From Rubrivivax sp. (lineage in GTDB: Bacteria; Pseudomonadota; Gammaproteobacteria; Burkholderiales; Burkholderiaceae_C): a DNA stretch of 64,000 bases. The notes below the pieces were generated by a model. The model saw only the letters and a list, made by a program, of their open reading frames with translations. It made no database searches and was not told the DNA's origin. Position 1 is the stretch's first letter; every line of letters starts with the position of its first letter. The stretch spans positions 62,001 through 126,000 of the forward strand of contig JAIXSE010000016.1 in assembly GCA_027484825.1 (NCBI GenBank). Direction: 5' to 3'. This document shows, piece by piece, positions 1 to 56,739 of the stretch. Both the position numbers and the translations under genes were made by a program.

Positions 1-1
1 G

Positions 2-211
2 CCATTGGCGCGGCCGCCCCTGGATGCCGCAGCAACATTCGCAGCAATAGCCGCCGCAGAAGCGGCCACCGTGGCTGGCCGCTACCGTCGCCCCTACGAG
101 GGCACGGACAACCCGAAGGAGGCCATGCAGGCCTATCTGGATTGGGAGTTCGGCCTGGTCGATCAACTCGCCCGGGACGGCACTCACTTCTTCAAGGTGC
201 TGGGGGAGTGA
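2..211 (+). CDS. C-terminal fragment of an unidentified protein
   Basis: The reading frame is open from the first base of the window and stops at 209-211, so this is the last ~69 residues of a gene that begins upstream. The fragment is Ala-rich at first and ends in a hydrophilic stretch (AYLDWEFGLVDQLARDGTHF). I do not recognise the family. A TTG at position 5 could act as a start but has no visible ribosome binding site, so truncation by the window edge is more likely. It converges on the minus-strand gene that ends at 246. Confidence 0.5.
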   Translation, partial: PLARPPLDAAATFAAIAAAEAATVAGRYRRPYEGTDNPKEAMQAYLDWEFGLVDQLARDGTHFFKVLGE

Positions 212-245
212 GAGCCCGTGGGGCCCTCGCTCACGGAGCGGCGGT

Positions 246-1607
246 CTAGCGGGACGCTGCAGCCAGGGCCTGCTCCAGATCGGCGATCAGGTCGTCAATG
301 TGCTCGATGCCGACGGACAAGCGGATCGTGTCTTCCGAGACACCGGCCTTGTCGAGCTCGGTGGGGGAGAGCTGGCGGTGCGTGGTTGAGGCCGGATGCG
401 TCGCCAGGGAGCGCACATCGCCGATGTTGACCAGGCGCGTGAACAGCTGAAGCGCATCCAGGAATCGCGCGCCCCGCTCGCGGCCTTCGCCCTGCGGTCC
501 CTTCAAGCCGAAGGTGACGATGCCGGAGGCCTTGCCGGAGAGGTACTTGCGAACGAGCGCATGGTCCGAATGATCTTCCAGCCCGGCGTAGTTGACCCAA
601 CTGACCTGCGGATGGCGCTGAAGGTGTTGGGCCAGGGCCAGCGCGTTGTCGCTGATGCGGTCCAGGCGCAGGGCCAGGGTCTCGATGCCTTGAAGGATGA
701 GGAAAGCGTTGAAGGGCGAGAGCGCCGCACCGGTATTGCGAAGCGGCACCACGCGCGCACGGCCGATGTAGGCGGCCGGGCCGAGGGCCTCGGTGTAGAC
801 AACGCCGTGATAGCTGGGATCCGGCTCATTCAGCCGCTTGAAGCGTTCCTTGTGCTGCGCCCAGGGGAATCGGCCGGAATCCACGATGGCGCCGCCAATG
901 CTGGTGCCGTGGCCGCCCAGGTATTTGGTCAGGGAATGCACGACGATGTCCGCCCCGTGTTCGATCGGGCGGCTCAGGTAGGGGGAGGGGACGGTGTTGT
1001 CAACGATCAGCGGAACGCCGTGGTCATGGGCGATCTTGGCGATGCGTTCGATGTCGGTGACATTGCCCTGCGGGTTGCCCAAGGACTCCACGAAGATGGC
1101 CTTGGTGTGCTCGTCGATCAGCGCGGCGAAGGAGTCGGGCTGACGGTAGTCGGCGAAGCGGGCCTTGATGCCGTATTGGGGCAGGGTGTGGGCGAGCAGG
1201 TTGTAGGTGCCGCCGTAGAGCGCGCTGGAGGCGACGATGTTGTCGCCGGCTTCGGCGATGGTCAGGAGGGCGTAGGTGACAGCGGCTTGACCGGAGGCGA
1301 CTGCCAGGGCGCCGATGCCGCCTTCCAGCGCGGCGAGGCGCTTCTCCAGCACATCGTTGGTCGGATTCATGATCCGGCTGTAGATGTTGCCCGGCACCTT
1401 CAGGTCGAAGAGGTCGGCGCCGTGCTGGGCGCTGTCGAATGCGTAGGCGACCGTCTGGTAGATGGGGACTGCGACGGCCTTGGTGGTGGGGTCGGGGGAA
1501 TAGCCGCCGTGGATGGAGAGGGTTTCGAAGCGCCAGGTGGGGGCGGTCGAGGGAGTGGGGGACGGCGATGGCGATGTCGATGGCGAGGGAGAGTCGGTGC
1601 GGGACAT
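246..1607 (-). CDS. metY: O-acetylhomoserine sulfhydrylase / Cys-Met metabolism PLP enzyme
   Basis: A 453-residue enzyme of the Cys/Met-metabolism PLP-dependent family, expected to make homocysteine (or methionine precursors) from O-acetyl-L-homoserine and sulfide in the cytoplasm. The PLP-binding lysine is seen as [11 protein letters not shown] (Lys228). [21 protein letters not shown] (around residues 76-97) and the [19 protein letters not shown] stretch (around 202-220) are typical of the MetY/O-acetylhomoserine aminocarboxypropyltransferase branch rather than MetB/MetC. The first ~24 residues are a Ser/Pro/Thr-rich low-complexity tail not found in most family members, so the true start could be a little further in. 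A good ribosome binding site (ggaggagc) precedes the ATG at 1607. I see no recognisable SAM riboswitch in the 160 bases upstream. Confidence 0.9.
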
Positions 1608-1768
1608 GGGGGCTCCTCCGGTTGTGGTGATCGGAGGCTACGGGGACGGCCGTGGGCGGGCAAAGCAGGTTTGCGCATGAGGTCATGCGGATTGCTGAGG
1701 CGAGGGGCCTCGACTCGCGGATCTCTGCCTCTGACTGGGTCATAGGCCGCGGGTCCAGGGAGGCAGCC

Positions 1769-2233
1769 CTAGCAGTGAAGTTGGATGAAGCGCTGACGCA
1801 GCGTCAAAAGCTCTTGCTGGATTGCGGGGCGGGTGCGGGCGTCTGAGATCCGCTCCCTTTGCTCAGCCGCTGGGATGGCTGCGTCCAATTGGCGGCATTC
1901 GGCGCGAGCGGGCGCGGCGAGATTGAGCCTCTTGCTGTCCACCTGGAGTTGCTTTGCGTCCTTGCCTGTCAGCGGACGGATGGCTTCCGCGATCCCCTCA
2001 TTGAATCTCTCCCGTTGCACATCGGCACCGGCAGCCTCCTTCCCGGTGGATGTCAGGCCCCGCGTTGGCTCCACGTCGACCTTCTTCGCCCCCAGGCATG
2101 GGGCGTCTGAATACGTGACCTTGCCGTTGACCTCGCATCTGAATACTTCGCGAGAAGGCTGGGGAAGCTTTTGGGCGAATGCGGAGCTGCAGCTCAGTGT
2201 TGCGGCGGCGAATGCAAGGAGTGGAGTGCGCAT
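1769..2233 (-). CDS. Secreted DUF4124-type protein
   Basis: A 154-residue protein with a clear N-terminal signal peptide (MRTPLLAFAAATLSCSSAFAQ, cleavage likely after residue ~20). Just after it comes the DUF4124 pattern FRCEVNGKVTYSDAPC, in which two cysteines flank a short beta hairpin. The C-terminal half is charged and probably helical, and it ends in a Cys. DUF4124 proteins are common periplasmic or envelope proteins of unknown function in beta- and gamma-proteobacteria. It reads in the same direction as the metY-like gene, 161 bases away, so it may have its own promoter. Confidence 0.75.
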   Translation of the reverse strand: MRTPLLAFAAATLSCSSAFAQKLPQPSREVFRCEVNGKVTYSDAPCLGAKKVDVEPTRGLTSTGKEAAGADVQRERFNEGIAEAIRPLTGKDAKQLQVDSKRLNLAAPARAECRQLDAAIPAAEQRERISDARTRPAIQQELLTLRQRFIQLHC

Positions 2234-2744
2234 GGAGTGACGGCGTCCTTTGCGGTGGGGTTGTGTAGCCGATTGGCGGATTGGTGATTGGCCGGTTGGG
2301 AGACTCTATCCAATATCTCTATACGCGATTGTGTTGGGACGCGGATGGGAGCGGAACATTGCGCGTTTTGCAAATCGGGAATGGCCCCTGATCGCTTGGC
2401 GCGGACGCGGTGTTGGCCGTCAATTGAGGGGTTGAGACCACTCTGTGCTTACCCTGGGAGTCCAGCCTTGGCCACCTTGAAGTGGCGGGCCTTTTGCAAT
2501 GGTTTCGCACTGAGGCGGCTCAGGTAGAGTCATCCATCGTTTGCTTCGGCGCCACCGCAATGCAAGACGGCGCCTACCCAACGACGACATGGCGGTGCCA
2601 TGTCTGCGGAGACCCGTGCTGTTGGATACGCGGTGGCTGAGATCTACCAGGAAGCTAACCTGAGCTTTACCAACGTATGCTGGCGTCGGCCATCGATCTG
2701 ATATCGTAAGCGTAACTAGATGAAGGTACGGGTGGGGGGAGACG
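2234..2744. other. 511-base intergenic region upstream of the giant RT gene
   Basis: No convincing gene is seen; the short open frames here lack coding character. The stretch is less GC-rich than its surroundings. It holds a small hairpin, GCCAC-cttgaa-GTGGC (2471-2486), followed by gggccttttg, which may be the remains of a terminator. A G-rich ribosome binding site (ggggga, 2735-2740) lies just before the ATG at 2745. Several defence-associated reverse transcriptases are encoded next to a non-coding RNA, so this segment is the natural place to look for one, but I see no specific conserved structure to prove it. Confidence 0.4.
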
Positions 2745-5700
2745 ATGGATGGCCGTTACGACATAGGCGATTTGCTCGCCAAGGTGGCTTTGGACGATGT
2801 GTTGCAGCGCCTTGGGCTGAAGACGGAACGTCGTGGTGCATCAATTCAAGCCTTGTGCCCTTTTCACCAGGACACGAAGCCGTCGCTGAATGTCTATCCG
2901 GCTGACGGTACTTCTACTGCCCACTACCATTGCTATGCCTGCGGCGCACATGGAAATGCTATTGATTTGGTCAAGAGAGTTCAGGGGGTGGACTTCTTGC
3001 CGGCGGTGCAATGGCTGGCTCAGCAGTTCGGCATCAAATCCCCGAGCCGCCAGTCCAAGCAGCGTGCTAGTGAAACCGTAGGTAGAGATGCGGCGCTGAA
3101 ATTTGCTCTTCATACATACGACGAAAAGCATGACGATGTTCGCTTCCAGGCTTGGTGCGAAGAGCGCGGATTCGAACGAAACTCCTTGTACAGCCTTGGC
3201 CTGCGCTGCATCACACGCGGCGTTCTGGTGGAAGCTCTGCAATTCAAGAGCGTGGGTGAACGGGCTGAGTTGACGGACGGTCTGCAGGATCTCGGCCTAG
3301 TCAAGCGCCTTTATCAGCGCTCAGCGCCACAGCAGTGGAAGTTGAACCTGCACGACCAGTTCCAAGACTGCTTTCATGATGGCCGCATCGTCATTCCGAT
3401 TCAGAGCGGGACTATTAAGCAGCTGCAGTGGCTGGGCTTTGCTGGACGTTCGCTGCAGACTGTTCCGCCGGAGGGCGTCGCCAAGTACTTGCTTACGGCG
3501 GGTTTTGAGAAGGCCAAGGTTCTTTTCAATGAGCCGGCTGCCTTCGATGCAGTTAGGCGGGCACAGAAAGCTAACCTCCCATCGAGACTCTACCTCGTAG
3601 AGGGATTTCTGGATGCGCTCCGACTGCACACCCTTGGTCTGCCAGCCGTCGCGTTGATGGGTACGAGCTTGGGCAATGAGCCTATGAAGCGGTTGGCGGC
3701 TCTGGCACAGAGCTCTGAGTCAAGCGCCGAGCTGTCGTACAGCTTGTTCTTGGACAATGATCCGGCCGGTTTCGCAGGCTCGGAGCGCCTCGTTCGCCGC
3801 CTGTTGGACTTGCGGGGCGTGAACCTGCGCTGGGTGGGTATGCCATGGCGAAGTGTGCCCGCGTTAGGCAAGGACCCAGACACCTGCCTGCGCGGTGTAA
3901 CCACAGCACAAGAAGCTCTAGCTTGGCTGCAACCTTTTGATCTCCCTGCTGAGGCTGTTCTGTTGGCCCAAGCACTTGGCGGCCAGGACGCCTCAGACTT
4001 GCAGCCAGAGCGGTTCAGCCAGCTGGTTCAGACGGTCCGTGAGCGTGCCTTGTTCCGGGTCGGCATGGTCCTTCGGCGGCTATATGGCCCCCGCCCCGCG
4101 GAAGTTGCGTTTGATCGTCTGCAGGTCAGTCAGTGGGACTGGGCGCGTCGGTTGCATGCTGAGCTGGCGACATCCGAGGTGGCTCGCAACTCCTTGCCTT
4201 CGCGAGGGCAGTACCTTGAGGAGCCACTTCCGCGGGTCGCGCTGGCGCGTAGTCTGGCCTATCACGGCGCGCGTCGCGGAGAGCTGCCTTGTGATGAAGA
4301 GACGTGGCAGACGCTAGGCGGCAATGCCCGGCTCTTCGATCAGATGGCACTGCATCGATTGCGGGCCATGATGGAGGGCGACCAGCTATGGAAGCAAGCG
4401 GCGCCCTTTGACGCAGTTCATTTGCCCCGCAAGCTGACTGCCGATCCAAAGGTGTTGGACGACCCACGTCGCAAGGTGATGCCACACCCCGCGGATCTTT
4501 TGGTTCATCAGACGGTTCTCAATGAGTTGCTGAGTCAGCGGCATGACCGGCCAAGCGCGACCGGGCGCGTATTCTCAGACGATATACCGGCCGTGCGTTG
4601 GTATGCCTCACGCCGGGAAGTATTGGTGACGGGATTGAATACGCCGCTGAATGAGATCGATGAGGAACTTAACCTACCGAAGACACTTAGCTTTGGCTAC
4701 CAGATCGACATGGACGTTCTGGAAGGCGATCAGACGCCTTCGGACCAGGGCATGTTCCGTCCTTTCGGGCAGTGCTGGCGTGAGTTCATGGCCACGCTAT
4801 CCAAGCAATGCCATGCGATCGGGCCTCGAGTACACGTGCTACGGTTGGATGCCAAGCGCTACTATGACTCGATCCAGCGCTTTGTGCTGCGTGATGCGCT
4901 CTTGACGCCGCTGAACCAAGCGATGGCCGTACACGGCGTTCCAAAAGGCTTCGTAGATGTTCTCGGGCTGCCACAGTCAGGCGCCGAACCTTGGGATGCA
5001 GAGCTAGAGGCGAAGCTTGAGCGCCTACTGGTCGGACTCGTCTTTCACCACCAATATCGTGACCCCGACGTGGACGGCAGAGCATCGCGGAGCGGCGAGC
5101 TCATCGGCATTCCCCAGGGGCCGGTCCTGTCGGCCTATATCGGCACCATTGCCCTCTTCCCTGTGGACGAGACGGCTCGCTCCTTCATCCACCGTACAGC
5201 GGAAAGAGGCGTCGACGGCGTTTTGCGGCCACGCGTTGGCTATGCCCGCTATGTGGACGACATTGTGTTGTTCGCTGACAGTGAAGATCTGCTTGTGCAA
5301 TTGCGGGAACTGCTGCAAGCAAAGGCTGCGGAGCGCTCCGTCGACCTCATCCACAAAGGCAATCGCGTACGTGCTGGCTCGCCGCGCCAGGTGATGCGTC
5401 AGCTCAATGACGGACGTGGCCTGGCGCCGTCCGTCCCTGCCTGGGAACCGCCTTTGGTCGGCGACGGCGAGACCGACTACAGCTTGGGCGGTGAACTGCC
5501 CGAGGTGGACCGGCAGTGCGCGCTACAGATGCTGCGTCGTGTCGCGCTGATGCATCAGCCAAGCGAGATCGTCGGCCAGGTGAAAGCGGTCCTGGAAGCG
5601 CCTGACCTGCGCCCAGGGGATCTCGGTCTTTGCGCACGTTGGTTGTGGTGGCAGGTCGCGTCAGCGATTGATCCTGTACAAGACGATTCGGCGCCGGCCC

Positions 5701-8700
5701 AACTGTGGGAAAGCTTCCGGCAGCTATGGAAAGAGGTCTGCAGCAGTCATCCGTGGGCCAGCGCGTTCGAACAGCGTGGATACGATTGGCTTTTTGCTGT
5801 GGAGGGCTTGGACAAACTGCTGGATAACCATCCGTGGCAGGAGAACGGTAAATTCTTAGTCGAGAGGCAGGAGGACCGCAGCAGGCGCCTCCGACTGGCT
5901 CGCCTGGTCTGCATGCCCGAGTTCGTCGAACAGGTGAAGCCGGCCAAGAACTTCGATCACGTGCGGCGTCGCGCTTGGCTGGCAGCGCGTAAGGCGTATC
6001 GGCTGCTCGGAGACCCTGAAGTGGTGCTGGCTCTGCCGCCTCAGTTAGGCGGTCCGTTGACGGCCATTGAGTGGCTGTGCCTGGCCGGCCCCAGCATTTC
6101 GCAGCGGGGTGCTAACCATCCGCTGAACGCACTGGTCGAAAGGCAGGTGACAGGGTCAACTGGGGATGGACTGGACCTAGCCCTTAGGGTCATTGGGCAG
6201 TTGACCAAGAGAAATGATGAGTCTGATGCCGCGGCGGCGGGCCTGGCGATCGACTTTGTACTCAACAGTTCGCCGCCAAGGGGTGGACTGTCCACGCTGG
6301 CGACCTGGTTCGATCATCTGCTTTCGCAAGTCGGCGCCGACAAGCGTTTGATGCCCCATCTTCCGGCTTTCAGTGAAGTCGAGCCGCCACTCTTTGCGAT
6401 CGACGCCCAGACGGGACTTGAGCAGCGAGCGCTCTATCGGTACACAGAGCGCGGTTCTGACGAAATGCAGCACGCGCCTGCGATGGACCGACGGTTTGCG
6501 CACGTGGTCATGCGTTCTGAGCCGCCTTGCCCTGCCGAAGAGATCACTCTTCGTTTTGTAGGAGTTCCGGAGTCGAATTCCCTACGGCTCGCCGTGGAGA
6601 AGAGTCAGGAACCAACGCATTGGATGGATCTGGACTATTCCGCTGGCGCGGAGCAGGCGCGGCTCCCCATAACACATCGGGCTGCCCGTCTCTATTACGC
6701 ACTGCTGGCCATGCATCAGATGGCAGTCGATGGCGTCCGTAGCTTGACCTATGTGCCTTTTAGGCCGCACTTGTTCCGCGGCCAAGGCAACGAGACGGAG
6801 CTCTTTCTACTGGCCGAGTGCGTGAGTCGAGATCAACTCGGGGTCAATGCTTGGTACCACGACCGTGATGGTCGTGTGCAGTCGGTCACTGTGCCTTTCG
6901 CCGGGGCTGATCTGTGGCGTGTAGGGTGGGCGGTCGCCGATGTGTTGGGGGTGGCGGCCGACATGGCTGGCGAGACGGGTGACCGTGACGAGCAACTCGA
7001 CGAGCTTGAGACGCCCGATGAAGGGGGGGACAGCTCAGAGGTATCCGCAGCCCTGGCCAGAAAAGAGCTCGAGGCCTATTTGCTGCGCCAGCAGCTGCGA
7101 AAACTTCAGGGCACCTACCTGTCATCGGCGCAGATTGAATCTGCAGGCCTAGCGGAGGACGAACTTCCTGGGACGGTCAAGCGGGCCCTGGCGCTTCTTG
7201 AGAGGTTCCCGGCTCACGAGTCGCTGGAAGCCCAGGTGCGTCATTTGCTGACGGTCGAAGCCGAAAGCCGCGCCATGGCTCTCCGCTTAGAGCATGGCAG
7301 CGGCGATGCCATGCGCCACGTTTTGCATCAGGCGGTGCCGGAGGCGTTGAACAGACTACCCCTTTGGGTTCTGCAGGGGTTACCGCTGCGACCCCCGCCG
7401 GAGTGGGAGTGTCTCTTGCGGCCAGAGTTGGGGCTGATGCTCTCGCTGTATCAGGCTTTATACCCGACGGTCCCTGGCAGCGGAAAGATATCCGCTGAGC
7501 CCCTGCGAATCTCCTTGGCGCTTGCCGTGATTGGTATCGGTCTGAGGGGCAGCGTGGCAGCCCTCTGGGGCGTTGCGCAAGCGTCTGGCGCCGCGCGCAT
7601 GCCCGAGCGGCTGAACATGCCCGCACGGTGGGCCGTGGTGAACATGGAGCGCCTGGATCCGCAGGGCGACTACAGCGTCATGCGAAAGTGGTTGGTGGAT
7701 GGAGATTGGTTGGCAGTCTGCAAGGCCAGCCCTTGGCATTGGATGCTCGCGCTTGTGGGCCTGCTGGACTCAAGCTTTCCGCAGGCACTTGAGCTGCCTC
7801 AGCTGATACAGGTGTACGAATTCCTTGCTCAGTGGCAGATCGCGCCGGCGGACCGAGGGGACGCGGAAAAAGAGAAGGCGGTTTGGCCCTTTGATGCTCT
7901 GCCGAGCTTGCCGCTGCAAACGTGTGACGAGGCAATGAGCGCCTTACCGCAGGCCTTGTGCGCGCTCGATGCGTTGCGTGGCATGCGAGTGGTGCTCGCT
8001 TCGGGCCAGAAGTTTGGCCGACAACTTCACACCGATGAGTTCATCGATACAAAGGGCGAAAGCTGGCGGATGAGCACGCCGCAGTTCACCAGTTTGTATG
8101 GCAATACGTTGCCGCAGTGGCGGAGTGGGCGGAAAAAACTGACGTGTTGGGCTGAAACGCGGCGCCTGTCGGACAACGAACTGCTGGCGGTCCATACGTT
8201 GGACCACAAGCTCGGGCGCTGGTTTATCAGAGAAGAGCTGGTGTCTTTGGCGCTTCGCGCAGCGCAGGACGGCAGTGCAGTCTCATCCGGCCAATCTCCT
8301 ATTCAGACTAAAGTGGCGCAAGCTCAGCAGGCCGACCACGTCGGGGAGGCGCCCGGCGTAGCTTCTGCACCTGACGACGTCTCTGACACACTGCCGGCTA
8401 GCGAACCGTCCCCGTCTCCCAAGCTTCAGCCCGCTGTTCCGTCCGGCCGGATGCCAGTAGAGCGCCTGGATGAATGGCAGAACGATTCTTGGGGCAAGCG
8501 CTTTGGCATTGTCAAAAGCGCTGAAGACTCAGATGCGGCGGTACGTGCTCACCTGCGCATTGCGCTGTTTCAATGGCGAGTTGACGATAGCTACAGCCAC
8601 CCAATCTCCGAGGTGGGCCTGGCCGGCTTCCCGCTGAGTGCCGATGCACATCGCGGGCTGCAAGCGCATCTCGCCGGCGATCTAAAGGAGGTGAATCGGG

Positions 8701-10316
8701 TTGCCAAGCGCGAGGCAGAGTTTCATTGGACAGACGATCGGAGGGTCATCTCGTGGCCCGAACATCGGCGCCGTGTGCTCCTGAAGCAGGCCTTGCGGGC
8801 CTGTCGGGAGTTGAACGTGAACCTCCTTGTCCTGCCCGAGGTGTCTGTCCGTCCGGACACGGTCGAATGGTTGAAGGAAGAGTTATTCCATCATCCTGGC
8901 CTGGCCGTGCTGGCAGGCACCTTCCGTCAGTTCGAGGCGAGGCACGACCACCACCAGCATCTGAGAGAGAAGCTGACGCTCTTGTGGCAGCCGGAGAAAT
9001 TCGAGGCCGAAGCATTCGGCTTGGAAGGTGATGCCCGCGTGATGCAGTTCCAGCGCGATAAGAAGTACCGCGCGGTGGCGGCGCACGAATTGTTCCGGCC
9101 TGGGACTAGCCGATTGGCACCCCTATATCAAGAGGAGAAGGTCTTGGACGAGCTCCGCAGCGTTTGGGCGGGGGGCAGGACGTTTGATCAGACCAAAGCG
9201 CTGGTGGATGCACTCATCCATGGCCCGCAGAAGCTCCGCCATTGCATGGAACTGATCTGTTCTGAACTGTTCTTGCTCACCAGCCCCGCAAACAGCCGCC
9301 CATTGCTTCAAGACTTTGTCAAGGTGCTGCGCCAGTTTGGCTCCAGCACAGAAGAGGCTGCCCAGATCGTCGACGGTGATATCAAGGCGCTGGGAGAATA
9401 CTTGACCGTTACTCAAAATAGGCGCGAGCGGCGATCGGTGCTGGTGGTCCCGGCCTGCACCAGTCGTAGCAACGACTACTGGTATGCCGGTCAAGCGAGT
9501 GTTCTGGCATCAGCAACGGCGACGGTGTTCTGCAATGCTGTCAGTAAGGGGCTGAGCGTCGGCGGGAGTTGTTTCATCGGTTGCGACTCGGTCCAGAAGC
9601 AGCCGAATGAGCACGTAGGCGTCGTTCGCCTACTCACGCCGTATCGTGGCTGGCATCACGGCATACTCCAGCCTTCTGTTAAGGGGGCTCTGTCCGAGGC
9701 TGACCAGGCGATCGTCGTGGTGGACTTGGATCCGGTGCACATGGTTAGCGGCAAGCCGCGTCCACAGTTGTTGGCAGAACCCGTGTCGATGGTGGCCTAT
9801 CTCCCCATCGTTGAAGTGATACGCAAGGAAGACAACGCTCGAGCGCTCGTGGCTTCGTTGCGAGATCAGTTCATGGGTGACGCTGGCCAGCGTGCGTTTC
9901 ACGGCGTCCTGGTTTCGAAGGGTTTTCCGAAGGATGGCGAGTCAATCCATGGCCTTGAGGAATTCCGTAGCGCCTTTGCCGAGTTGCTTGATGCCTTGAA
10001 GCGCGGCGCTATCAATCCTGAGTCAGGTGGCGTTGAGTTGGACGATTTCGTCAAATTTTTTGGTGATTCCAATACGGTGCGGCAGCGGATCATTGCCTCC
10101 TTGCGGGATCGTCTCCAACAGCCGGCGCCCCTCACCAAAGCCGACGGCATGGATCTAGAGCCAGCATGGCTGGACTTTTTGATCGCCGACATGACATGGA
10201 AACAGCCTGAGGCCGAGCCGCTTCATGGCTACAAGGCCAGCACTGCAGAGCCAGCGATCCGAGTGCCGCCCTGGCGTCTCCCGGAAGAGCGGGCGGGATG
10301 CGGTGAAGGAGGCTGA
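2745..10316 (+). CDS. Giant CHC2 zinc finger-Toprim-reverse transcriptase-nitrilase fusion, putative anti-phage protein
   Basis: A single 2523-residue open frame with four recognisable modules. (1) A DnaG-type CHC2 zinc finger: C38-x2-H41 and C63-x2-C66. (2) A Toprim domain with EGFLDA (Glu286, Asp290) and the DND acidic pair (Asp337, Asp339), as in the primase core. (3) A reverse transcriptase: motif A LDAKRYYDS (Asp702), motif B IPQGPVLS (Gln791-Pro793), catalytic YVDD (836-839). (4) After a Pro/Ser-rich linker (about 1845-1905), a nitrilase-fold domain with the Glu-Lys-Cys triad visible as LPEVS (Glu2032), RDKKY (Lys2106 or 2107) and ELICSE (Cys2172). About 1000 residues between the RT and the linker match nothing I recognise. 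RT-nitrilase fusions are known as defence-associated reverse transcriptases (UG1/DRT type 1); the primase-like N-terminus and the size are unusual. Base composition is less GC-rich than the flanking genes, suggesting transfer. No integrase is seen beside it. Defence function is inferred. Confidence 0.85.
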   Translation: MDGRYDIGDLLAKVALDDVLQRLGLKTERRGASIQALCPFHQDTKPSLNVYPADGTSTAHYHCYACGAHGNAIDLVKRVQGVDFLPAVQWLAQQFGIKSPSRQSKQRASETVGRDAALKFALHTYDEKHDDVRFQAWCEERGFERNSLYSLGLRCITRGVLVEALQFKSVGERAELTDGLQDLGLVKRLYQRSAPQQWKLNLHDQFQDCFHDGRIVIPIQSGTIKQLQWLGFAGRSLQTVPPEGVAKYLLTAGFEKAKVLFNEPAAFDAVRRAQKANLPSRLYLVEGFLDALRLHTLGLPAVALMGTSLGNEPMKRLAALAQSSESSAELSYSLFLDNDPAGFAGSERLVRRLLDLRGVNLRWVGMPWRSVPALGKDPDTCLRGVTTAQEALAWLQPFDLPAEAVLLAQALGGQDASDLQPERFSQLVQTVRERALFRVGMVLRRLYGPRPAEVAFDRLQVSQWDWARRLHAELATSEVARNSLPSRGQYLEEPLPRVALARSLAYHGARRGELPCDEETWQTLGGNARLFDQMALHRLRAMMEGDQLWKQAAPFDAVHLPRKLTADPKVLDDPRRKVMPHPADLLVHQTVLNELLSQRHDRPSATGRVFSDDIPAVRWYASRREVLVTGLNTPLNEIDEELNLPKTLSFGYQIDMDVLEGDQTPSDQGMFRPFGQCWREFMATLSKQCHAIGPRVHVLRLDAKRYYDSIQRFVLRDALLTPLNQAMAVHGVPKGFVDVLGLPQSGAEPWDAELEAKLERLLVGLVFHHQYRDPDVDGRASRSGELIGIPQGPVLSAYIGTIALFPVDETARSFIHRTAERGVDGVLRPRVGYARYVDDIVLFADSEDLLVQLRELLQAKAAERSVDLIHKGNRVRAGSPRQVMRQLNDGRGLAPSVPAWEPPLVGDGETDYSLGGELPEVDRQCALQMLRRVALMHQPSEIVGQVKAVLEAPDLRPGDLGLCARWLWWQVASAIDPVQDDSAPAQLWESFRQLWKEVCSSHPWASAFEQRGYDWLFAVEGLDKLLDNHPWQENGKFLVERQEDRSRRLRLARLVCMPEFVEQVKPAKNFDHVRRRAWLAARKAYRLLGDPEVVLALPPQLGGPLTAIEWLCLAGPSISQRGANHPLNALVERQVTGSTGDGLDLALRVIGQLTKRNDESDAAAAGLAIDFVLNSSPPRGGLSTLATWFDHLLSQVGADKRLMPHLPAFSEVEPPLFAIDAQTGLEQRALYRYTERGSDEMQHAPAMDRRFAHVVMRSEPPCPAEEITLRFVGVPESNSLRLAVEKSQEPTHWMDLDYSAGAEQARLPITHRAARLYYALLAMHQMAVDGVRSLTYVPFRPHLFRGQGNETELFLLAECVSRDQLGVNAWYHDRDGRVQSVTVPFAGADLWRVGWAVADVLGVAADMAGETGDRDEQLDELETPDEGGDSSEVSAALARKELEAYLLRQQLRKLQGTYLSSAQIESAGLAEDELPGTVKRALALLERFPAHESLEAQVRHLLTVEAESRAMALRLEHGSGDAMRHVLHQAVPEALNRLPLWVLQGLPLRPPPEWECLLRPELGLMLSLYQALYPTVPGSGKISAEPLRISLALAVIGIGLRGSVAALWGVAQASGAARMPERLNMPARWAVVNMERLDPQGDYSVMRKWLVDGDWLAVCKASPWHWMLALVGLLDSSFPQALELPQLIQVYEFLAQWQIAPADRGDAEKEKAVWPFDALPSLPLQTCDEAMSALPQALCALDALRGMRVVLASGQKFGRQLHTDEFIDTKGESWRMSTPQFTSLYGNTLPQWRSGRKKLTCWAETRRLSDNELLAVHTLDHKLGRWFIREELVSLALRAAQDGSAVSSGQSPIQTKVAQAQQADHVGEAPGVASAPDDVSDTLPASEPSPSPKLQPAVPSGRMPVERLDEWQNDSWGKRFGIVKSAEDSDAAVRAHLRIALFQWRVDDSYSHPISEVGLAGFPLSADAHRGLQAHLAGDLKEVNRVAKREAEFHWTDDRRVISWPEHRRRVLLKQALRACRELNVNLLVLPEVSVRPDTVEWLKEELFHHPGLAVLAGTFRQFEARHDHHQHLREKLTLLWQPEKFEAEAFGLEGDARVMQFQRDKKYRAVAAHELFRPGTSRLAPLYQEEKVLDELRSVWAGGRTFDQTKALVDALIHGPQKLRHCMELICSELFLLTSPANSRPLLQDFVKVLRQFGSSTEEAAQIVDGDIKALGEYLTVTQNRRERRSVLVVPACTSRSNDYWYAGQASVLASATATVFCNAVSKGLSVGGSCFIGCDSVQKQPNEHVGVVRLLTPYRGWHHGILQPSVKGALSEADQAIVVVDLDPVHMVSGKPRPQLLAEPVSMVAYLPIVEVIRKEDNARALVASLRDQFMGDAGQRAFHGVLVSKGFPKDGESIHGLEEFRSAFAELLDALKRGAINPESGGVELDDFVKFFGDSNTVRQRIIASLRDRLQQPAPLTKADGMDLEPAWLDFLIADMTWKQPEAEPLHGYKASTAEPAIRVPPWRLPEERAGCGEGG

Positions 10317-10535
10317 CGCGGTCGAAGTCCATTTTGAACCTGCCCCGGGAAGCCGTGCATATCCCCGCGCGCACGTCAGGTAGCCAAATGCCACGCCCAC
10401 GCTGCTAATTTTGCGGGGCCTTCGCGACAACACGGGAGCATGTTCCGCCGCGAAACCTTGTTCCAGAGGCCAAGGATATTGAGTGGCAGGTCACTTTTGC
10501 GCACAGCCTCCAGCCTACGCTGGCATACCTCGTTG

Positions 10536-10823
10536 ATGGAATTCGCTGACCTCCCGCTCCACGACGCCACGCTGTCCGCGATCCACATCAGCTACGAAGC
10601 TGGCCGATGCGACTTGGTCCTTCGAGTCCTGGGAGGCGGCATCTACCAATTGGCCTTTGAAGGTTTCCGCACCTTGGATTTCCCAAGACACCAGCCATGG
10701 GGCCGATCCTGTTCGGTCAACGTTGCCCGGCAAATCGCAGCTCAGCGCTACGAGTTCGAACTCCAGTCTGGCGACGTGCTTCGAGTAGAAGCAACGAGTT
10801 GGAGCCTCCTAATCCCTCGTTGA
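10536..10823 (+). CDS. Small conserved-looking protein (MEFADLPLHDATL type)
   Basis: A ~95-residue protein read from the ATG at 10536. The N-terminal pattern LPLHDATLSAIHISYEAG followed by alternating hydrophobic strands and a C-terminal RVEATSW resembles a widespread family of small, mostly beta proteins of unknown function, often found as orphan genes near mobile or polymorphic-toxin loci. The frame extends upstream to 10440, but that extension lacks coding character. No strong ribosome binding site is visible. It lies 219 bases after the giant RT gene on the same strand, so it could be part of the same insert; a functional link is speculative. Confidence 0.55.
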   Translation: MEFADLPLHDATLSAIHISYEAGRCDLVLRVLGGGIYQLAFEGFRTLDFPRHQPWGRSCSVNVARQIAAQRYEFELQSGDVLRVEATSWSLLIPR

Positions 10824-11012
10824 AGAGGTTACCCCTGCCACATTTTCAGGCAATGCGCCAAACCCCTCACCAAATCAACCACTTACCCCGTCCCTACTCA
10901 GCCTGTACACGCCCTTATCCACAGCCACTGTGGACGATCCGCTATGCTGTCGGACTTTCCGCCGCGCCAGCTCTGCTGCGCTGTGCCGGCCCCCGCAGCC
11001 CGTAGTGTCCTG

Positions 11013-12164
11013 ATGACGCCTGAGTCCGACTTCGCCGCCCCCCTCCCGACTGGCGCGCTCCCCACCATCCTGCTCGCCCCCATGGAGGGCCTGCTGGACC
11101 ACATGCTGCGTGACACGCTCACCCAGGTGGGCGGCGTGGACCGCTGCGTCTCCGAATTCATCCGCATCACCGACCAACTGCTGCCTCGGCGCGTCTTCAC
11201 CCGCATCGTCCCGGAGCTGCGCACCGGCAGCCGCACCCGCGCTGGCGTGCCAGTTCGCCCCCAACTGCTGGGCTCAGACCCCGCCTGCCTCGCCGACAAC
11301 GCCGCGCGGCTGGCCGAGCTCCACCCGGCCGGGATCGACCTGAACTTCGGCTGCCCCGCCAAAACCGTCAACCGTCACCGCGGCGGCGCCGTGCTGCTGG
11401 ACGAGCCGACCCTGGTGCACGACATCGTCTCCGCCGTGCGCCGCGCCGTCCCCGCCGCCATCCCCGTCTCCGCCAAGATGCGCCTGGGCAACGAAGACCG
11501 CTCCCGCATGCTCGAATGCGCCAGCGCCGTCGAACGGGCCGGCGCGTCCGAGCTGGTCATCCACGCCCGCACCAAGCGCGACGGCTACAAGCCACCCGCG
11601 TATTGGGACCAGATTGCCGTCGTGCGCCAAGCGGTGCGTGTGCCCGTCGTGGCCAACGGCGAAGTCTGGACCGTGGCCGATGCCCGCCGCTGCCTGGCCG
11701 AGTCCGGCTGCGACAGCCTGATGCTGGGGCGCGGCATGGTCGCCAACCCCGGTCTGGCCCTGGCCCTGCGCGCCGAGCTGACCGGCACGTCCGCCCCGGC
11801 CTTGTCCTGGGCCGACCTGCTGGTGCTGATGGCCGACTTCTTCCTGCAGGTCCGCGCCAAGGTGGCCGCGCGCCATCAAGCCGGTCGCCTCAAGCAGTGG
11901 CTGCATTACCTGCGCCGCCACTATCCGGAAGCGGAAGAGGCCTACCAGCGGGTGCGTGTCATCAATGCAGCGGACGAGCTGTCCCGCCAGATGTTCGGCG
12001 ATGCCATCGCGGACGAACTGACCGCGCGTCTGGTGCTGATCAAGGCGCAGATGTCGCCCGCGTCCCCGACTGCCGCCTCCGCCGCGCACCTGCCTGGTGG
12101 TGATCCCACTTCTCTCATCGAACCCAACGCCGCGCCCGACGAGGCCCTGACGCTGACCGCATGA
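11013..12164 (+). CDS. dusC: tRNA-dihydrouridine synthase, DusC-like
   Basis: An FMN enzyme that reduces a uridine of the tRNA D-loop to dihydrouridine; DusC acts on U16. Read from the ATG at 11013 it is 383 residues. Hallmarks are LAPMEGLLDH near the N-terminus (FMN-binding loop), NFGCPAKTVNRHRGGA with the catalytic Cys114, the VSAKMRLG strand, VIHARTK, VVANGEVW and LMLGRGMVANP (phosphate-binding end of the TIM barrel). The MEGL and NxGCPA-KTVN sequence type is that of the DusC subfamily rather than DusA/B. The frame extends to an ATG at 10944, but the added residues look non-coding. The stop overlaps the start of the next gene by four bases (ATGA), so the two are probably co-transcribed. 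Confidence 0.9.
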   Translation: MTPESDFAAPLPTGALPTILLAPMEGLLDHMLRDTLTQVGGVDRCVSEFIRITDQLLPRRVFTRIVPELRTGSRTRAGVPVRPQLLGSDPACLADNAARLAELHPAGIDLNFGCPAKTVNRHRGGAVLLDEPTLVHDIVSAVRRAVPAAIPVSAKMRLGNEDRSRMLECASAVERAGASELVIHARTKRDGYKPPAYWDQIAVVRQAVRVPVVANGEVWTVADARRCLAESGCDSLMLGRGMVANPGLALALRAELTGTSAPALSWADLLVLMADFFLQVRAKVAARHQAGRLKQWLHYLRRHYPEAEEAYQRVRVINAADELSRQMFGDAIADELTARLVLIKAQMSPASPTAASAAHLPGGDPTSLIEPNAAPDEALTLTA

Positions 12165-14713
12165 CTTTGCCCATTGCTCCCACCCCTCCCATTCGTCGCA
12201 TCCGCTCCGTCACTCGGCCCGGCGCCTGGCTGAAGCCGCTGACGTCCTCGCTGCTGCTGGCAACCACCCTGGCGGCGCTTCTCCCGATGACCGTCCACGC
12301 GCAGACCCGCGATGAAGCGCAGGCGGATCCCGCAGCACGCCCGGCATCGTCGCCCCAAGCCGGTCACCATCGCCGGGGCGCCCACAGGGGCGGCCCGCAC
12401 ACCGCTGCCGGAACGACCAGCCCCGCCCGCACCGCCGCCACGCCGCTGAGCCTGGAGCGTGTCTACGGCGAGCCTCCGCTGCAAGGCCGCCTCACGCGCC
12501 AGTCCGAGCTTTCACCGGACGGCACCTGGGTCAGCTACCTGCGCCCCTCGGCCACGGACAGCGACCAGCTCGAGCTCTGGGCCCAGCCAACCGCTGGCGG
12601 CGAGCCGCGCAAGCTGGTCTCTGCCGACGAGGTGCTGGGCGGCCGTCGCCAGCAGTTGACCGAAGCCGAACGCATGGCGCTGGAGCGCAAGCGCATCAGC
12701 CAGGGCGGCATCACCGGCTACCAGTGGTGCGGTCCGGACGGACGCACGCTGCTGTTCCCGCTGTCGGGCGATCTCTATCTGGTGCGCCTGACCGAGCAGG
12801 GCCCGCAGGCCCAGCGCCTCACGAACGATCCCGATGTCCCCGAGCAGGACCCGACCTGCTCGCCCGACGGCAGCCAACTGGCCTACGTCAAGAGCGGCAA
12901 CCTCTGGCTGCAACCGCTGCACACCCAGGGCGCCGCGCGTGCCTTGACCACGGACGGCACCGGCACCCGGTTCTGGGGCCTGGCCGAATTCATCGCCGCC
13001 GAAGAGCTGGGACGCCAGCGGGGCTACTGGTGGTCGCCGGACGGTCGTCGTCTGCTGGCCTTCCGCGTGGATGAGGCCCGCGTGCCGGTGAAGACCCGCG
13101 CGCAGATCTTTGCCGACCGCACCACCATGACGCAGCAGCGCTACCCGAGCGCCGGCAGCCCCAATGCGGAAGTCACCGCCTGGGTGCTGGACCTGGCGGG
13201 GGAGGGCGTTGCGCGTGCGGTGCCCCTGGCCCTGCCTGCGGAAGCGGAATACCTGCCGCGCGCCGGCTGGTTCAGTGACGGCACGCCGTGGCTGCAATGG
13301 ATGACGCGTGATCAGCGTCGGCTGGTGTTGACCGAGTTCAAGGCCGGGAACGCATCAGCCGCAACGCCGTCCGCCCCGGCCTCCACAACGCCGACAGCAC
13401 CGACAGCACCGACAGCGTCGCCAGCGCTGCAAGGCCGCGTCATCACTGAAGAACGCGACGACGCCTGGGTGGAAGTGCAGGACGACCTGACCGAGCTGCC
13501 CGCCCGTCGCCTCTCCGGCCAGCCCGCGCTGCTGTGGTCCAGTGAAGCCTCGGGGCGTCGGCAATTGGTGTTGATCGACCGGGTGACCGGCCGTCGCATG
13601 GCGCTGACGACCGAACCCGAGCCGGTGGCCTATCGCGTCTGCAGCAGCGGTGACCGGGTGGTGTATGCCGCCGCGCGCGATCGCGGGCGTTCCCGCGAGC
13701 TCTTCGCCGTGGACCTGGCCGGCCGCTCCCGTCCGATGGCTGGTCAGCGCGAACGTCAATGGCGCGATGCGCGCGCTGACGGCGACTGTTCCCGCCTGCT
13801 GGTCACCCGCTCGTCCTGGGGCGAGCCGCCGCGTCTGTTCCTGCAGGACCTGGACAGTGGCGCCGCCCCGGTGGCGCTGCCGGGCGATGCCCCGGATCCG
13901 CTGCTGGCCAAGGTGGTGCCCACGCCAGAGGTGGTGGAGGTCACCGCCGCAGACGGTCGCACGCCGCTCAATGCGTTCTACTTCGCACCGCTGGATGGCC
14001 GTCCCGGTCTGCACCCGGTCATCACGCTGGCCTACGGCGGCCCGGGCGTGAGCACGGTGGGCTGGAGCTGGCATCGCGACACGGCGCTCATCGCCTACTG
14101 GCAGCGGCGCGGCTACGGTGTCTTCACGCTGGACACCCGCGGCATGGCCAATCGGGACCGCGCCTTCACCCGCGCCCATGCCCGGTCCTTCGGTGTCAAT
14201 GAGGTGGCCGATCTGTTCGCCGCCGTCCGCCAGCTGCCGCAAAAGCGCGCCGGCATCGACCCGCGCCGCATCGGCTTCTTCGGCTGGTCCTATGGCGGCT
14301 TCCTCGCCGTGCGCAGCATGCTGGACGATCAGACGCCGTTTGCGGCCGCGGTCGGTGGCGCACCGCCCACCGACTGGACGCTCTACGACACCGCCTACAC
14401 CGAACGCTATCTGGGCCTGCCCACCGATGCCGCCGGTCAGCCAACCGCGCCTTATGCGCAGTCCAATCTGGTGGACCGCGTGACGCTGCTCAAACGCCCA
14501 CTGATGGTGATCCACGGCACGGCCGACGACAACGTACTGTTCGAGCACACCCTGCGCCTGAGCGAAGCCTTCCAGAAGCAGTCCGTCCCGTTCGAGCTGA
14601 TGGTCTACCCCGGCAAGGCGCACGGCATTGCCGGACGCGGCGCGCGGCTGCATCTGTACCGCACGGTCGACGCCTTCTTCGCCCGCACCTTGCAGGCATC
14701 CGCCACGCATTGA
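12161..14713 (+). CDS. S9B dipeptidyl peptidase IV-type serine peptidase, exported
   Basis: An 850-residue prolyl oligopeptidase-family protein expected to cleave N-terminal dipeptides (X-Pro) in the periplasm or outside. After a basic N-terminus there is a hydrophobic export segment ending in MTVHAQT (about residue 48), then a ~70-residue Pro/Ala/His-rich stretch. A beta-propeller follows, with WSPDG and CSPDGSQLAYV repeats and the EELGRQRGYWWSPDG segment that carries the Glu-Glu aminopeptidase motif of DPP IV. The alpha/beta hydrolase domain is last: GWSYGG (Ser710), GTADDNV (Asp789) and GKAHGI (His821). A low-complexity Ala/Pro/Thr insert sits at about residues 400-425 inside the propeller (bases 13360-13430). 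The start overlaps the dusC-like stop. Confidence 0.9.
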   Translation: MTLPIAPTPPIRRIRSVTRPGAWLKPLTSSLLLATTLAALLPMTVHAQTRDEAQADPAARPASSPQAGHHRRGAHRGGPHTAAGTTSPARTAATPLSLERVYGEPPLQGRLTRQSELSPDGTWVSYLRPSATDSDQLELWAQPTAGGEPRKLVSADEVLGGRRQQLTEAERMALERKRISQGGITGYQWCGPDGRTLLFPLSGDLYLVRLTEQGPQAQRLTNDPDVPEQDPTCSPDGSQLAYVKSGNLWLQPLHTQGAARALTTDGTGTRFWGLAEFIAAEELGRQRGYWWSPDGRRLLAFRVDEARVPVKTRAQIFADRTTMTQQRYPSAGSPNAEVTAWVLDLAGEGVARAVPLALPAEAEYLPRAGWFSDGTPWLQWMTRDQRRLVLTEFKAGNASAATPSAPASTTPTAPTAPTASPALQGRVITEERDDAWVEVQDDLTELPARRLSGQPALLWSSEASGRRQLVLIDRVTGRRMALTTEPEPVAYRVCSSGDRVVYAAARDRGRSRELFAVDLAGRSRPMAGQRERQWRDARADGDCSRLLVTRSSWGEPPRLFLQDLDSGAAPVALPGDAPDPLLAKVVPTPEVVEVTAADGRTPLNAFYFAPLDGRPGLHPVITLAYGGPGVSTVGWSWHRDTALIAYWQRRGYGVFTLDTRGMANRDRAFTRAHARSFGVNEVADLFAAVRQLPQKRAGIDPRRIGFFGWSYGGFLAVRSMLDDQTPFAAAVGGAPPTDWTLYDTAYTERYLGLPTDAAGQPTAPYAQSNLVDRVTLLKRPLMVIHGTADDNVLFEHTLRLSEAFQKQSVPFELMVYPGKAHGIAGRGARLHLYRTVDAFFARTLQASATH

Positions 14714-40017: not shown

Positions 40018-40093
40018 GGGTCGTTAGCTCAGTCGGTAGAGCAGCGGACTTTTAATCCGTTGGTCGCAGGTTCGAATCCTGCACGACCCACCA
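40018..40093 (+). tRNA. tRNA-Lys (anticodon TTT)
   Basis: A 76-base cloverleaf: acceptor GGGTCGT pairing with ACGACCC, D arm GCTC-agtcggtaga-GAGC, anticodon loop ACTTTTAAT (TTT), T arm GCAGG-ttcgaat-CCTGC, discriminator A and an encoded CCA (40091-40093). Confidence 0.97.
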
Positions 40094-40203
40094 TGTTTTG
40101 AAGTCTTGCGTATATGGGTCGTCAGTGACTCGTCGCAGTTTGGTGAAGTTTCTTCACTCTCGACTGTGCGAAAGCTGCGGAATATTTACGAAAGATGACG
40201 TCA

Positions 40204-40236
40204 GCAGCTCATAATATGATTCATAATATGAGCTGC
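40204..40236. repeat. 33-base near-perfect palindrome between tRNA genes
   Basis: Left arm 40204-40219 (GCAGCTCATAATATGA) pairs with right arm 40221-40236 at 15 of 16 positions, around a single central base. It also contains a direct repeat tcataatatga. It lies 12 bases before the second tRNA-Lys gene and is strikingly AT-rich in the middle for this genome. Confidence 0.85.
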
Positions 40237-40247
40237 AGTGGATCCGG

Positions 40248-40323
40248 GGGCTCTTAGCTCAGTTGGTAGAGCAGCGGACTCTTAATCCGTTGGTCGAAGG
40301 TTCGAATCCTTCAGGGCCCACCA
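40248..40323 (+). tRNA. tRNA-Lys (anticodon CTT), copy 1
   Basis: A 76-base cloverleaf: acceptor GGGCTCT / AGGGCCC with one G-T pair, anticodon loop ACTCTTAAT (CTT), T arm GAAGG-ttcgaat-CCTTC, encoded CCA. Identical to the copy at 40481. Confidence 0.97.
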
Positions 40324-40480
40324 CTCAAGACGTTTTTACAGCAGGGCACTTGCAGCGTGTCACTTCTACGCAGTCCGGTTCGCAGTCCGGTCTGGACAGT
40401 TTGCGCAGAAGCGAGATGAAGCAAGTCTCCAGCAGGTTGTCACCAGGGGTCAGCCCCGGCGACGCCACCCACCGAATATC

Positions 40481-40556
40481 GGGCTCTTAGCTCAGTTGGT
40501 AGAGCAGCGGACTCTTAATCCGTTGGTCGAAGGTTCGAATCCTTCAGGGCCCACCA
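40481..40556 (+). tRNA. tRNA-Lys (anticodon CTT), copy 2
   Basis: Base-for-base identical to the tRNA at 40248-40323, including the encoded CCA. It is followed by a strong terminator at 40641, so the three tRNA-Lys genes may share one transcript from the promoter at 39876. Confidence 0.97.
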
Positions 40557-51667: not shown

Positions 51668-51686
51668 GCCCCCACGTTTTGTCCCC

Positions 51687-51779
51687 GGAGGGGGAACGAT
51701 CCCGGTGGATCGGCCAGGCTTCAAACCTGGTGGGTGGCGCCATGCGTTGCCAGGTGGGTTCGACCCCCGCCCCCCTCCG
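51687..51779 (+). tRNA. selC: tRNA-Sec (selC), anticodon TCA
   Basis: A 93-base tRNA 20 bases after selB. It has the 8-bp acceptor stem typical of bacterial tRNA-Sec (GGAGGGGG 51687-51694 with CCCCCTCC 51771-51778), a 5-bp T stem GTGGG-ttcgacc-CCCGC, a long variable arm (around 51728-51752), and the anticodon loop CTTCAAA with TCA on stem CCAGG/CCTGG. The discriminator base is G779. The next bases are CCG, so the 3' CCA is not encoded, unlike the three tRNA-Lys genes in this window. Standard gene finders may miss it or read an open frame through it. Confidence 0.95.
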
Positions 51780-51904
51780 CCGGAAGCATGGGCTTGGCTA
51801 CTGCGCGGGGCGATCTTGCGTCTGCGGTGCTCGCCGTACGAGAGTACGGCTGCGCTCCTCAACGCAACCTCGCCCCGCTCGCGACGCCAATCCCATGCTT
51901 CCGG
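51780..51904. repeat. 125-base long interrupted palindrome directly after selC
   Basis: The segment folds on itself in nested arms: 51780-51792 with 51892-51904 (13 bp, perfect), 51794-51798 with 51886-51890 (5 bp), 51805-51813 with 51870-51878 (9 bp), 51816-51821 with 51862-51867 (6 bp), and 51833-51839 with 51844-51850 (7 bp) closed by a GAGA loop. It begins on the base after the tRNA-Sec discriminator. It could be a dispersed palindromic element or a structured RNA. Confidence 0.85.
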
Positions 51905-56145: not shown

Positions 56146-56700
56146 TTACTGCTGCTCAACGCCGGGGATGCGTCCGTCCCTCATCTTGAACGGCTTCGAA
56201 ATCAGACAAAGTGCTTCGGCGTCGATGAAGACAGGGAGCACCAAGCGCATGACTGCTGAAGCGCCTGTCATGACCTGCCGCTGGAACAAGCTGCGCCGCA
56301 CATGAACGGTGGAGCCGGGCTTGATGACCGCGACGTCGGCGGGTTCGGGATCGTGCTCAATCGCTCCGATGAGAGGTTTCCAAGAGCCATTGAGATCTCG
56401 GAACTCAATGAAGGAGTGGATGCGATCGACCCAAAAATCGGCCGCCTCTCTGTTGCCTTTGATCTTGAGCGCTTCACCGGTTGCCTGGTTGCTGATGCGG
56501 AACTCCCCTGAAACAAAACCGTCAGGCGAGATGAGGGTTTTGGTCAGCTGAATGTTGACATCGGAAAACGGTGGTGTTCCAGCACTAAAGCAGAATTTGT
56601 AGTTGTCTGGTGCTGCGAAGGCGAACCAAGGCGAAAAAGCAATTGCTGCTGCTACGAGATGCCTGGATCGGGCGAAGCGTTGGAATAGATTGATGAGCAT
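56146..56700 (-). CDS. Secreted protein of unknown function, paralogue A
   Basis: A 184-residue protein with a signal peptide (cleavage near PWFAFAAPD). The mature part shares, in order, the features of its neighbour at 56740: a Cys near the start, PP(F/Y)SD(V/I)(N/D)I(Q/R)LTKTLISP-x-G-x-VSG-x-FR(I/V)S, K(I)-x-G, FWVDR, EFR(D)LNG, VIKPGS, LF-RQ, and IPGV(E/K)QQ at the end. I recognise no known family. It reads in the same direction as its paralogue and could be co-transcribed with it. Confidence 0.7.
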   Translation of the reverse strand: MLINLFQRFARSRHLVAAAIAFSPWFAFAAPDNYKFCFSAGTPPFSDVNIQLTKTLISPDGFVSGEFRISNQATGEALKIKGNREAADFWVDRIHSFIEFRDLNGSWKPLIGAIEHDPEPADVAVIKPGSTVHVRRSLFQRQVMTGASAVMRLVLPVFIDAEALCLISKPFKMRDGRIPGVEQQ

Positions 56701-56739
56701 AAGGCCGTTCCTTCGTCAAAGTGACGCCTGACGCCGAGG

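Follow-up and report, generated by a model that had tools for sequence, protein, structure and literature searches.

In this study, we assigned a 2523-residue protein of a Rubrivivax sp. contig, encoded near the left end of the window (the whole 64,000-nucleotide stretch of DNA that was analysed), to the UG29 class of the UG/Abi reverse transcriptases (RTs). The PADLOC model RT_UG29 (PDLC03767) matches the protein over its whole length (2647 bits; residues 4-2511 against model positions 3-2278 of 2280), which, at the level of sequence profiles, settles the class, and no difference was found between the protein and the class as this model describes it. That the fusion is an undescribed architecture was not borne out, as the RT_UG29 profile covers the full length and a model named RTasDnaG-like also exists; judged by these matches, the protein adds one more member to a catalogued, rare class and is not a new kind of fusion. 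What the initial annotation proposed about the modules was supported: the protein is of DRT type, combines primase, RT and nitrilase-like modules and resembles UG1/DRT1 in architecture. As to function, we give a little better than an even chance to a horizontally transferred single-gene anti-phage system, which would cause abortive infection without a non-coding RNA (ncRNA), through a DRT1-like cycle with a primase placed in front. The point of interest in UG29 is what this primase does.

Two other proteins, a Sphingomonas member (P0007) and a further relative (P0008), also match RT_UG29 along the model length. The next-best RT class models, other than UG29, reached at most 36 bits with the window protein, 51 with P0008 and 69 with P0007. 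RTasDnaG-like gave 287 bits in all with the window protein; when segments were scanned apart, the primase part fell on model positions 45-372 and the C-terminal part on positions 269-546. Judging by the name of this model, DnaG-like parts with defence RTs were already familiar to the makers of the PADLOC library. A literature search, with the 2022 classification paper outside its reach, found no experimental work on UG29 RTs.

The gene is a single open frame with an ATG start and no internal stop (Table 1), so that all modules lie in one uninterrupted frame, as initially annotated. It is the longest frame in the window (2530 codons from stop to stop, the next longest having 1029), and this length, together with conservation across about 2500 residues, rules out a chance open reading frame (ORF). 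The deviating base composition noticed at first was confirmed, with a GC content of 60.3% in the ORF versus 66.2% in the rest of the window and a GC3 of 67.6% versus 84-87% in three nearby genes. On the left the gene is flanked by a metZ-like gene (246-1607, reverse strand) and a small ORF, and on the right by a dusC-like gene (10944-12164, forward strand), the names being taken from reading the translations. A promoter and terminator scan gave nothing above chance (0 promoter-like signals, and 10 terminator-like signals versus 7.0 ± 2.2 expected).

Table 1. Features of the UG29 gene and its leader in the window
Feature	Position	Strand	Evidence
UG29 gene, 2523-residue primase-RT-nitrilase-like protein	2745-10316	+	open frame; RT_UG29 2647 bits, residues 4-2511
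200 bp upstream common to L002; left limit of DNA similarity	2545-2744	+	blastn
CHC2 zinc finger, residues 7-102	2763-3050	+	PF01807 6.6e-19
DnaG-type primase core, residues 8-384	2766-3896	+	TIGR01391 1.3e-42, 146.2 bits
Toprim (Toprim_2), residues 283-379	3591-3881	+	PF13155 2.8e-6
Linker / probable RT N-terminal extension, residues 400-600	3942-4544	+	dN 0.018, dS 0.307 vs L002
RT core, residues 668-865; YVDD at 5250-5261	4746-5339	+	PF00078; YVDD invariant
Middle region, residues 900-1900	5442-8444	+	no recognised domain
C-terminal nitrilase-like domain, residues 1930-2430; E2032 at 8838, K2106 at 9060, C2172 at 9258	8532-10034	+	triad invariant; some members match nitrilase-bearing models

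Three other places in the window drew attention. A SECIS_3 element (42925-42983) and a tRNA-Sec gene (51686-51781) are present, and there is probably a selenoprotein gene, with TGA read as selenocysteine, around 42.9 kb. The kilobase of the window richest in AT holds three tRNA-Lys genes (ttt, ctt, ctt) at 40018-40556, spaced by about 230 bp. On the reverse strand at 56146-57369, two adjoining small genes (184 and 209 aa), related by eye and with signal-peptide-like starts, coincide with a dip in GC to 57% and are possibly a duplication.

By alignment, the N-terminal module is a DnaG-type primase core in which the catalytic residues are intact. Both CHC2 and Toprim_2 exceed their Pfam cut-offs in the window protein, which stays below that of the DnaG equivalog (TIGR01391; 146.2 of 283.6 bits). 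The initial annotation had named C38, H41, C63 and C66 as CHC2 residues and E286, D337 and D339 as Toprim residues; all were found where it had placed them and are, with D290, identical in seven aligned proteins (that of the window and six relatives, down to 27% identity). Twelve of 29 fetched DnaG loci were aligned and 10 rows were used, several of the ten being closely similar. In these ten housekeeping DnaGs 82 positions are identical, and 29 of the 82 are also identical in the five UG29 proteins compared, including C38, H41, C63, C66, R214, R235, K247, Y248, E286, D290, D337, D339 and D377. The idea that the UG29 primase replaces the host DnaG was rejected, as all four same-genus genomes carry a dnaG over the cut-off. 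No other DnaG match was found in the window's own assembly. Because the 9.5 kb around the dnaG of a same-genus genome (G584) gave only three short matches there (at most 179 bases) and the assembly is 95.2% complete, the missing housekeeping dnaG is most likely an assembly gap.

If the primase works, its simplest use in a fusion with a polymerase would plausibly be to make the primer, the alternative being the binding or sensing of single-stranded DNA (ssDNA) at phage forks. Primer making calls for the catalytic acids, and these are conserved. The alternative may be cast as a DRT1-like system primed on the protein, with the DnaG module as a sensor or anchor that would bind phage ssDNA or replication intermediates through its zinc finger and Toprim and so signal phage replication. 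This is in keeping with the purified class 3 DRTs (DRT1 and DRT5S/L), which made protein-linked DNA without added template, and with the T4 ssDNA helicase that DRT1 activity requires, both as described in the accessible part of PMC13275509. Pfam also gave no match to a DnaB-binding domain in the window protein, so that no tie to the host replisome is seen with this insensitive model, whose control was found in 2 of 14 genomes. However, a module that only binds would not need metal-binding acids, and E286, D290, D337, D339 and D377 are kept in all five UG29 proteins compared with DnaG, and D379 in four of the five. We regard the sensor or anchor role as unlikely. As to the primer-making role, it is possible, and proposed here tentatively, that the built-in DnaG-type primase would lay an RNA primer, on phage ssDNA or de novo, that the RT would extend it and that the RNA-DNA product on the protein would gate the nitrilase effector. 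If true, defence RTs would have a third priming mode in addition to side chains of the protein and structured RNAs, and the system could read phage replication forks directly. Defence RTs synthesize DNA by unexpected routes, and the start of synthesis is one of the traits that separate their classes; with UG29, whether a primase can start a defence RT becomes a question open to direct test. Such a role of the primase would tie the class 3 nitrilase effectors to the sensing of DNA replication.

The RT, annotated at first by its YVDD at 836-839, held up well. This motif (Y836-D839) is identical in the seven aligned proteins, and the RT residues are also invariant in an eight-row alignment. RVT_1 reached 27.2 bits in the whole protein, just under its cut-off of 29.6, and 32.7 bits, over the cut-off, when residues 560-999 were scanned alone. 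A group II intron RT (TIGR04416, 18.9 of 300) and a retron RT (retron St85 model, 14.8 of 235) were rejected, both scores being far under the cut-offs. A search of the PDB with an RT profile had a group II maturase as its best match (0.012), with DRT1 at 0.12. By these comparisons the UG29 RT is near no studied RT class, and for this reason the mechanism proposed here is taken from DRT1 on the basis of architecture. The slowly evolving residues 400-600 (rates in Table 1) are probably the N-terminal extension of the RT. An AlphaFold2 model of residues 560-980, built with six mostly similar sequences, had a mean pLDDT of 33.2 and is meaningless.

Downstream of the RT, residues 1000-1899 have no Pfam match and match RT_UG29 only in PADLOC. 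Judged by position only, the middle region may correspond to the helical-repeat domain of DRT1.

The C-terminal domain is likely, and not proven, to be a diverged nitrilase-type domain. E2032, K2106 and C2172 are identical in the seven aligned proteins and in a 10-member alignment, down to 27% identity. The Glu-Lys-Cys site first proposed, with the lysine at 2106 or 2107, is thus present and invariant in its residues; of the two candidate positions only K2106 is invariant, 2107 being Arg in P0007. The nitrilase label fared less evenly and is the weakest of the module labels: some members match nitrilase-bearing PADLOC models, but Pfam gave no nitrilase match in the domain. A PDB profile search of the domain likewise found no nitrilase. 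Compared by profile with three proteins of the nitrilase superfamily from the same genome, the domain gave a negative result (0.35% probability), the sole aligned stretch being the Glu motif. NCBIfam gave single-member ABC and IMPDH matches only on the C-terminal domains, which were taken as noise. Ten C-terminal domains were scanned singly against PADLOC at E ≤ 5. The UG5-nitrilase model matched three of the ten (best 3.8e-5), and RTasNitrilase (3.3e-5), Drt1a (0.0013) and CARF_nitrilase (0.021) matched two each; besides RT_UG29 and RTasDnaG-like, these four nitrilase-bearing models were the sole ones to match. In another scan, UG5-nitrilase also matched P0008 at 2093-2159. The triad spacing of five UG29 members (Glu-Lys 73-94, Lys-Cys 41-70) overlaps that of three nitrilase-superfamily members (57-79 and 49-56). 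An AlphaFold2 model of residues 1900-2452, built with five mostly similar sequences, had a mean pLDDT of 35.3 and is meaningless.

The RT and the C-terminal domain both bear on a reading in which UG29 would be a writing machine in the style of DRT7/UG10, the primase and the RT each making one strand of a toxic or signalling duplex and the nitrilase-like domain being structural. UG10 does couple an RT with a primase-polymerase, and preprint work on DRT7 is described in the accessible part of PMC13213688. The best RT model of the Sphingomonas protein P0007, other than UG29, is RT_UG10_large (69.4 bits). Against this, the window protein reaches only 18.5 bits with RT_UG10_large, and the primase partner of UG10 is listed in the accessible part of PMC8934634 as AE_Prim_S-like, another kind than DnaG. 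The C-terminal Glu, Lys and Cys are invariant, and a purely structural domain would not need these residues. We consider the writing machine improbable.

The comparison with the closest relative, on a Simplicispira hankyongi contig (L002; 91% identity), gave dN 0.043 and dS 0.281 over the whole gene (dN/dS about 0.15), and dN/dS was at most 0.26 across the eight segments tested. By module, dN and dS were 0.043 and 0.260 for DnaG, 0.030 and 0.251 for the RT and 0.024 and 0.300 for the C-terminal domain. The invariant active-site residues and the low dN/dS therefore indicate, as far as substitution patterns can, that the UG29 modules are maintained by purifying selection.

Eight full-length or near-full-length relatives were found, with 27-91% identity. 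Besides the Simplicispira protein, they comprise three from Burkholderiales or Rhodoferax MAGs (L003, L004 and L005; 69-72%), one encoded by the Polaromonas plasmid pPNAP05 (58%), one on a Sphingomonas aerolata plasmid (27%; its frame reaches the end of the record), and those of genomes G790 (about 50%) and G464 (about 32% over residues 401 onwards). A further member lies at a contig end in G674. In the genome samples searched, the UG29 class is rare and patchy. Residues 401-2523, used as the query, matched 3 of 399 genomes in the window's family, its own genome counted, and 2 of 399 in its order; a profile of the same residues matched 2 of 398 genomes of the phylum, one of them carrying the remnant in G1171. 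The full RT_UG29 profile matched 344 of 369 genomes; this signal is that of DnaG and is uninformative about the occurrence of UG29, and the genome matches listed besides the own gene covered only the first 360-490 or so of the 2280 model positions.

The remnant in G1171 (L055, 8189-9794) consists of the last 200 or so codons (204) of a UG29 gene, with 54% identity to the Sphingomonas member; it adjoins genes recognized by eye as transposase genes and is a decayed copy. A 2.4-kb GenBank record labelled Cyanobacteria phage AS-1 contig_3 (DQ115810.1; L038) contains an unannotated UG29 fragment at 3-1415, with 66% identity to window residues 773-1211 and 73% to the L003 protein. It is either contamination of the phage preparation or a phage-carried member. 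No full-length UG29 member was found in phage records or viral contigs, the viral-contig scans being directed at short conserved peptides only. Four matched viral-contig loci were set aside as other RTs by eye: L051, L052 and L054 are diversity-generating-retroelement-like and L053 is DRT3-pair-like. The two adjoining RT genes of L053 (3-3251) resemble a Drt3a-Drt3b pair by eye, and a profile including the second of them matches Drt3b in the PDB strongly; this match was set aside, as it stems from the DRT3-like protein of L053.

The blastn match between the window and L002 spans 2545-10298 at 90.7% identity, ending just short of the stop codon, with no second match over 150 bp listed. Since the DNA similarity is confined to this stretch, the moving unit looks like one gene with a short leader. 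Between the dusC gene and a long lectin-like gene, the latter matched by eye, there are about 16.7 kb here versus about 3.7 kb in G584, which has no match to the UG29 gene; the gene thus sits in a variable stretch of its genome. At the corresponding site G584 (L065, 3600-7290) has, by eye, a zeta-toxin-like kinase and small immunity-like genes and no UG29, which suggests that the site beside dusC is a hotspot for conflict genes.

When 20 chosen neighbour proteins were scanned, known or candidate defence genes were found within about 5 kb of four of the nine members having flanks: Avs1b adjoins UG29 in L048 (1978 bits), the Lamassu genes LmuA and LmuB are near it in L037, a NACHT protein in L036, and a STAND-like protein (61 bits to PDC-M54A), an AlbA protein and an integrase in L005. 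No defence match was obtained for one 97-residue ORF beside the window's gene or for two proteins each beside the genes of L004 and L044. IS21 genes lie upstream of UG29 in L002 and a TniQ gene, by a weak match, in L003. A PADLOC match to DrmD beside L002 (102 bits) was rejected and counted as a transposon gene, Pfam identifying the protein as the IstB of IS21 (233.7 bits).

These settings also bear on a reading without any defence role, in which the gene would be a selfish or replication element, a primase/RT derived from a plasmid, phage or transposon that aids its own replication. Two members are carried on plasmids and others stand beside the IS21 or TniQ genes, most of the plasmid matches listed are plasmid primases, and the primase part matches phage primase families (best PHROG 6444, 9.2e-40). 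Nevertheless, the transferred unit looks like one gene with no replication partner, some relatives neighbour defence genes, and the nitrilase-like domain would have no evident role in replication. Such an element is, in our judgement, highly improbable.

No sign of an ncRNA was seen at the locus. Rfam gave no RNA match in 1-14000 of the window, and in distant members the upstream sequence is unconserved beyond about 60 nt before the start, as is the downstream sequence. Such unconserved flanks would still be compatible with an RNA whose gene lies elsewhere or within the UG29 gene. Self-priming is plausible, as it would fit the intact DnaG site, the unconserved distant flanks and the lack of an Rfam match.

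Because of the order RT, long middle region and nitrilase-like domain, and because no ncRNA was seen, a DRT1-like cycle is our best guess. In DRT1, as reported in the accessible part of PMC13275509, template-free DNA is primed on the protein's own serine 402, the DNA adducts drive the formation of tetramers and filaments, by which the nitrilase is switched, and immunity needs the active sites of both RT and nitrilase; the class 3 DRTs studied so far are described there as priming on the protein itself. By analogy, the UG29 RT would make DNA without a dedicated ncRNA, and the start would be supplied either by the attached primase, as an RNA primer on ssDNA, or by a protein side chain as in DRT1. 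The DNA product held by the protein would then control how the nitrilase-like domains assemble, and infection by a phage would free the nitrilase activity, so that the cell stops.

Among known systems, DRT1 (UG1; RT, alpha-helical repeat and nitrilase; PDB 9YFD) is like UG29 in being a single gene with the order RT, large middle region and C-terminal nitrilase or nitrilase-like domain with a Cys. UG29 is about twice the size (2523 versus 1229 residues) and has at its N-terminus a DnaG-type primase, which is not a feature of DRT1. The Drt1a model matches the window protein in the RT core only (residues 681-847, 28.4 bits), so that its RT is distantly related and not UG1. A search with Drt1a matched none of 143 genomes, and its controls likewise matched none. 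UG5-nitrilase (DRT5) combines an RT and a nitrilase as UG29 does, and its model matches the C-terminal domain in three of the ten UG29 members; unlike UG29, this model of 907 positions includes no primase by name or size. DRT7 (UG10) is not known to have a nitrilase-like domain. DRT7 resembles UG29 in joining a primase and an RT in one defence protein, according to the accessible parts of PMC8934634 and PMC13213688, but its primase is AE_Prim_S-like whereas that of UG29 is DnaG-type, and the window protein is not an AEP-type primase-polymerase. With the housekeeping DnaG, UG29 has in common the CHC2 zinc finger, the core and the Toprim domain with its catalytic residues; unlike it, UG29 falls under the equivalog cut-off, matches no DnaB-binding domain and runs on into an RT.
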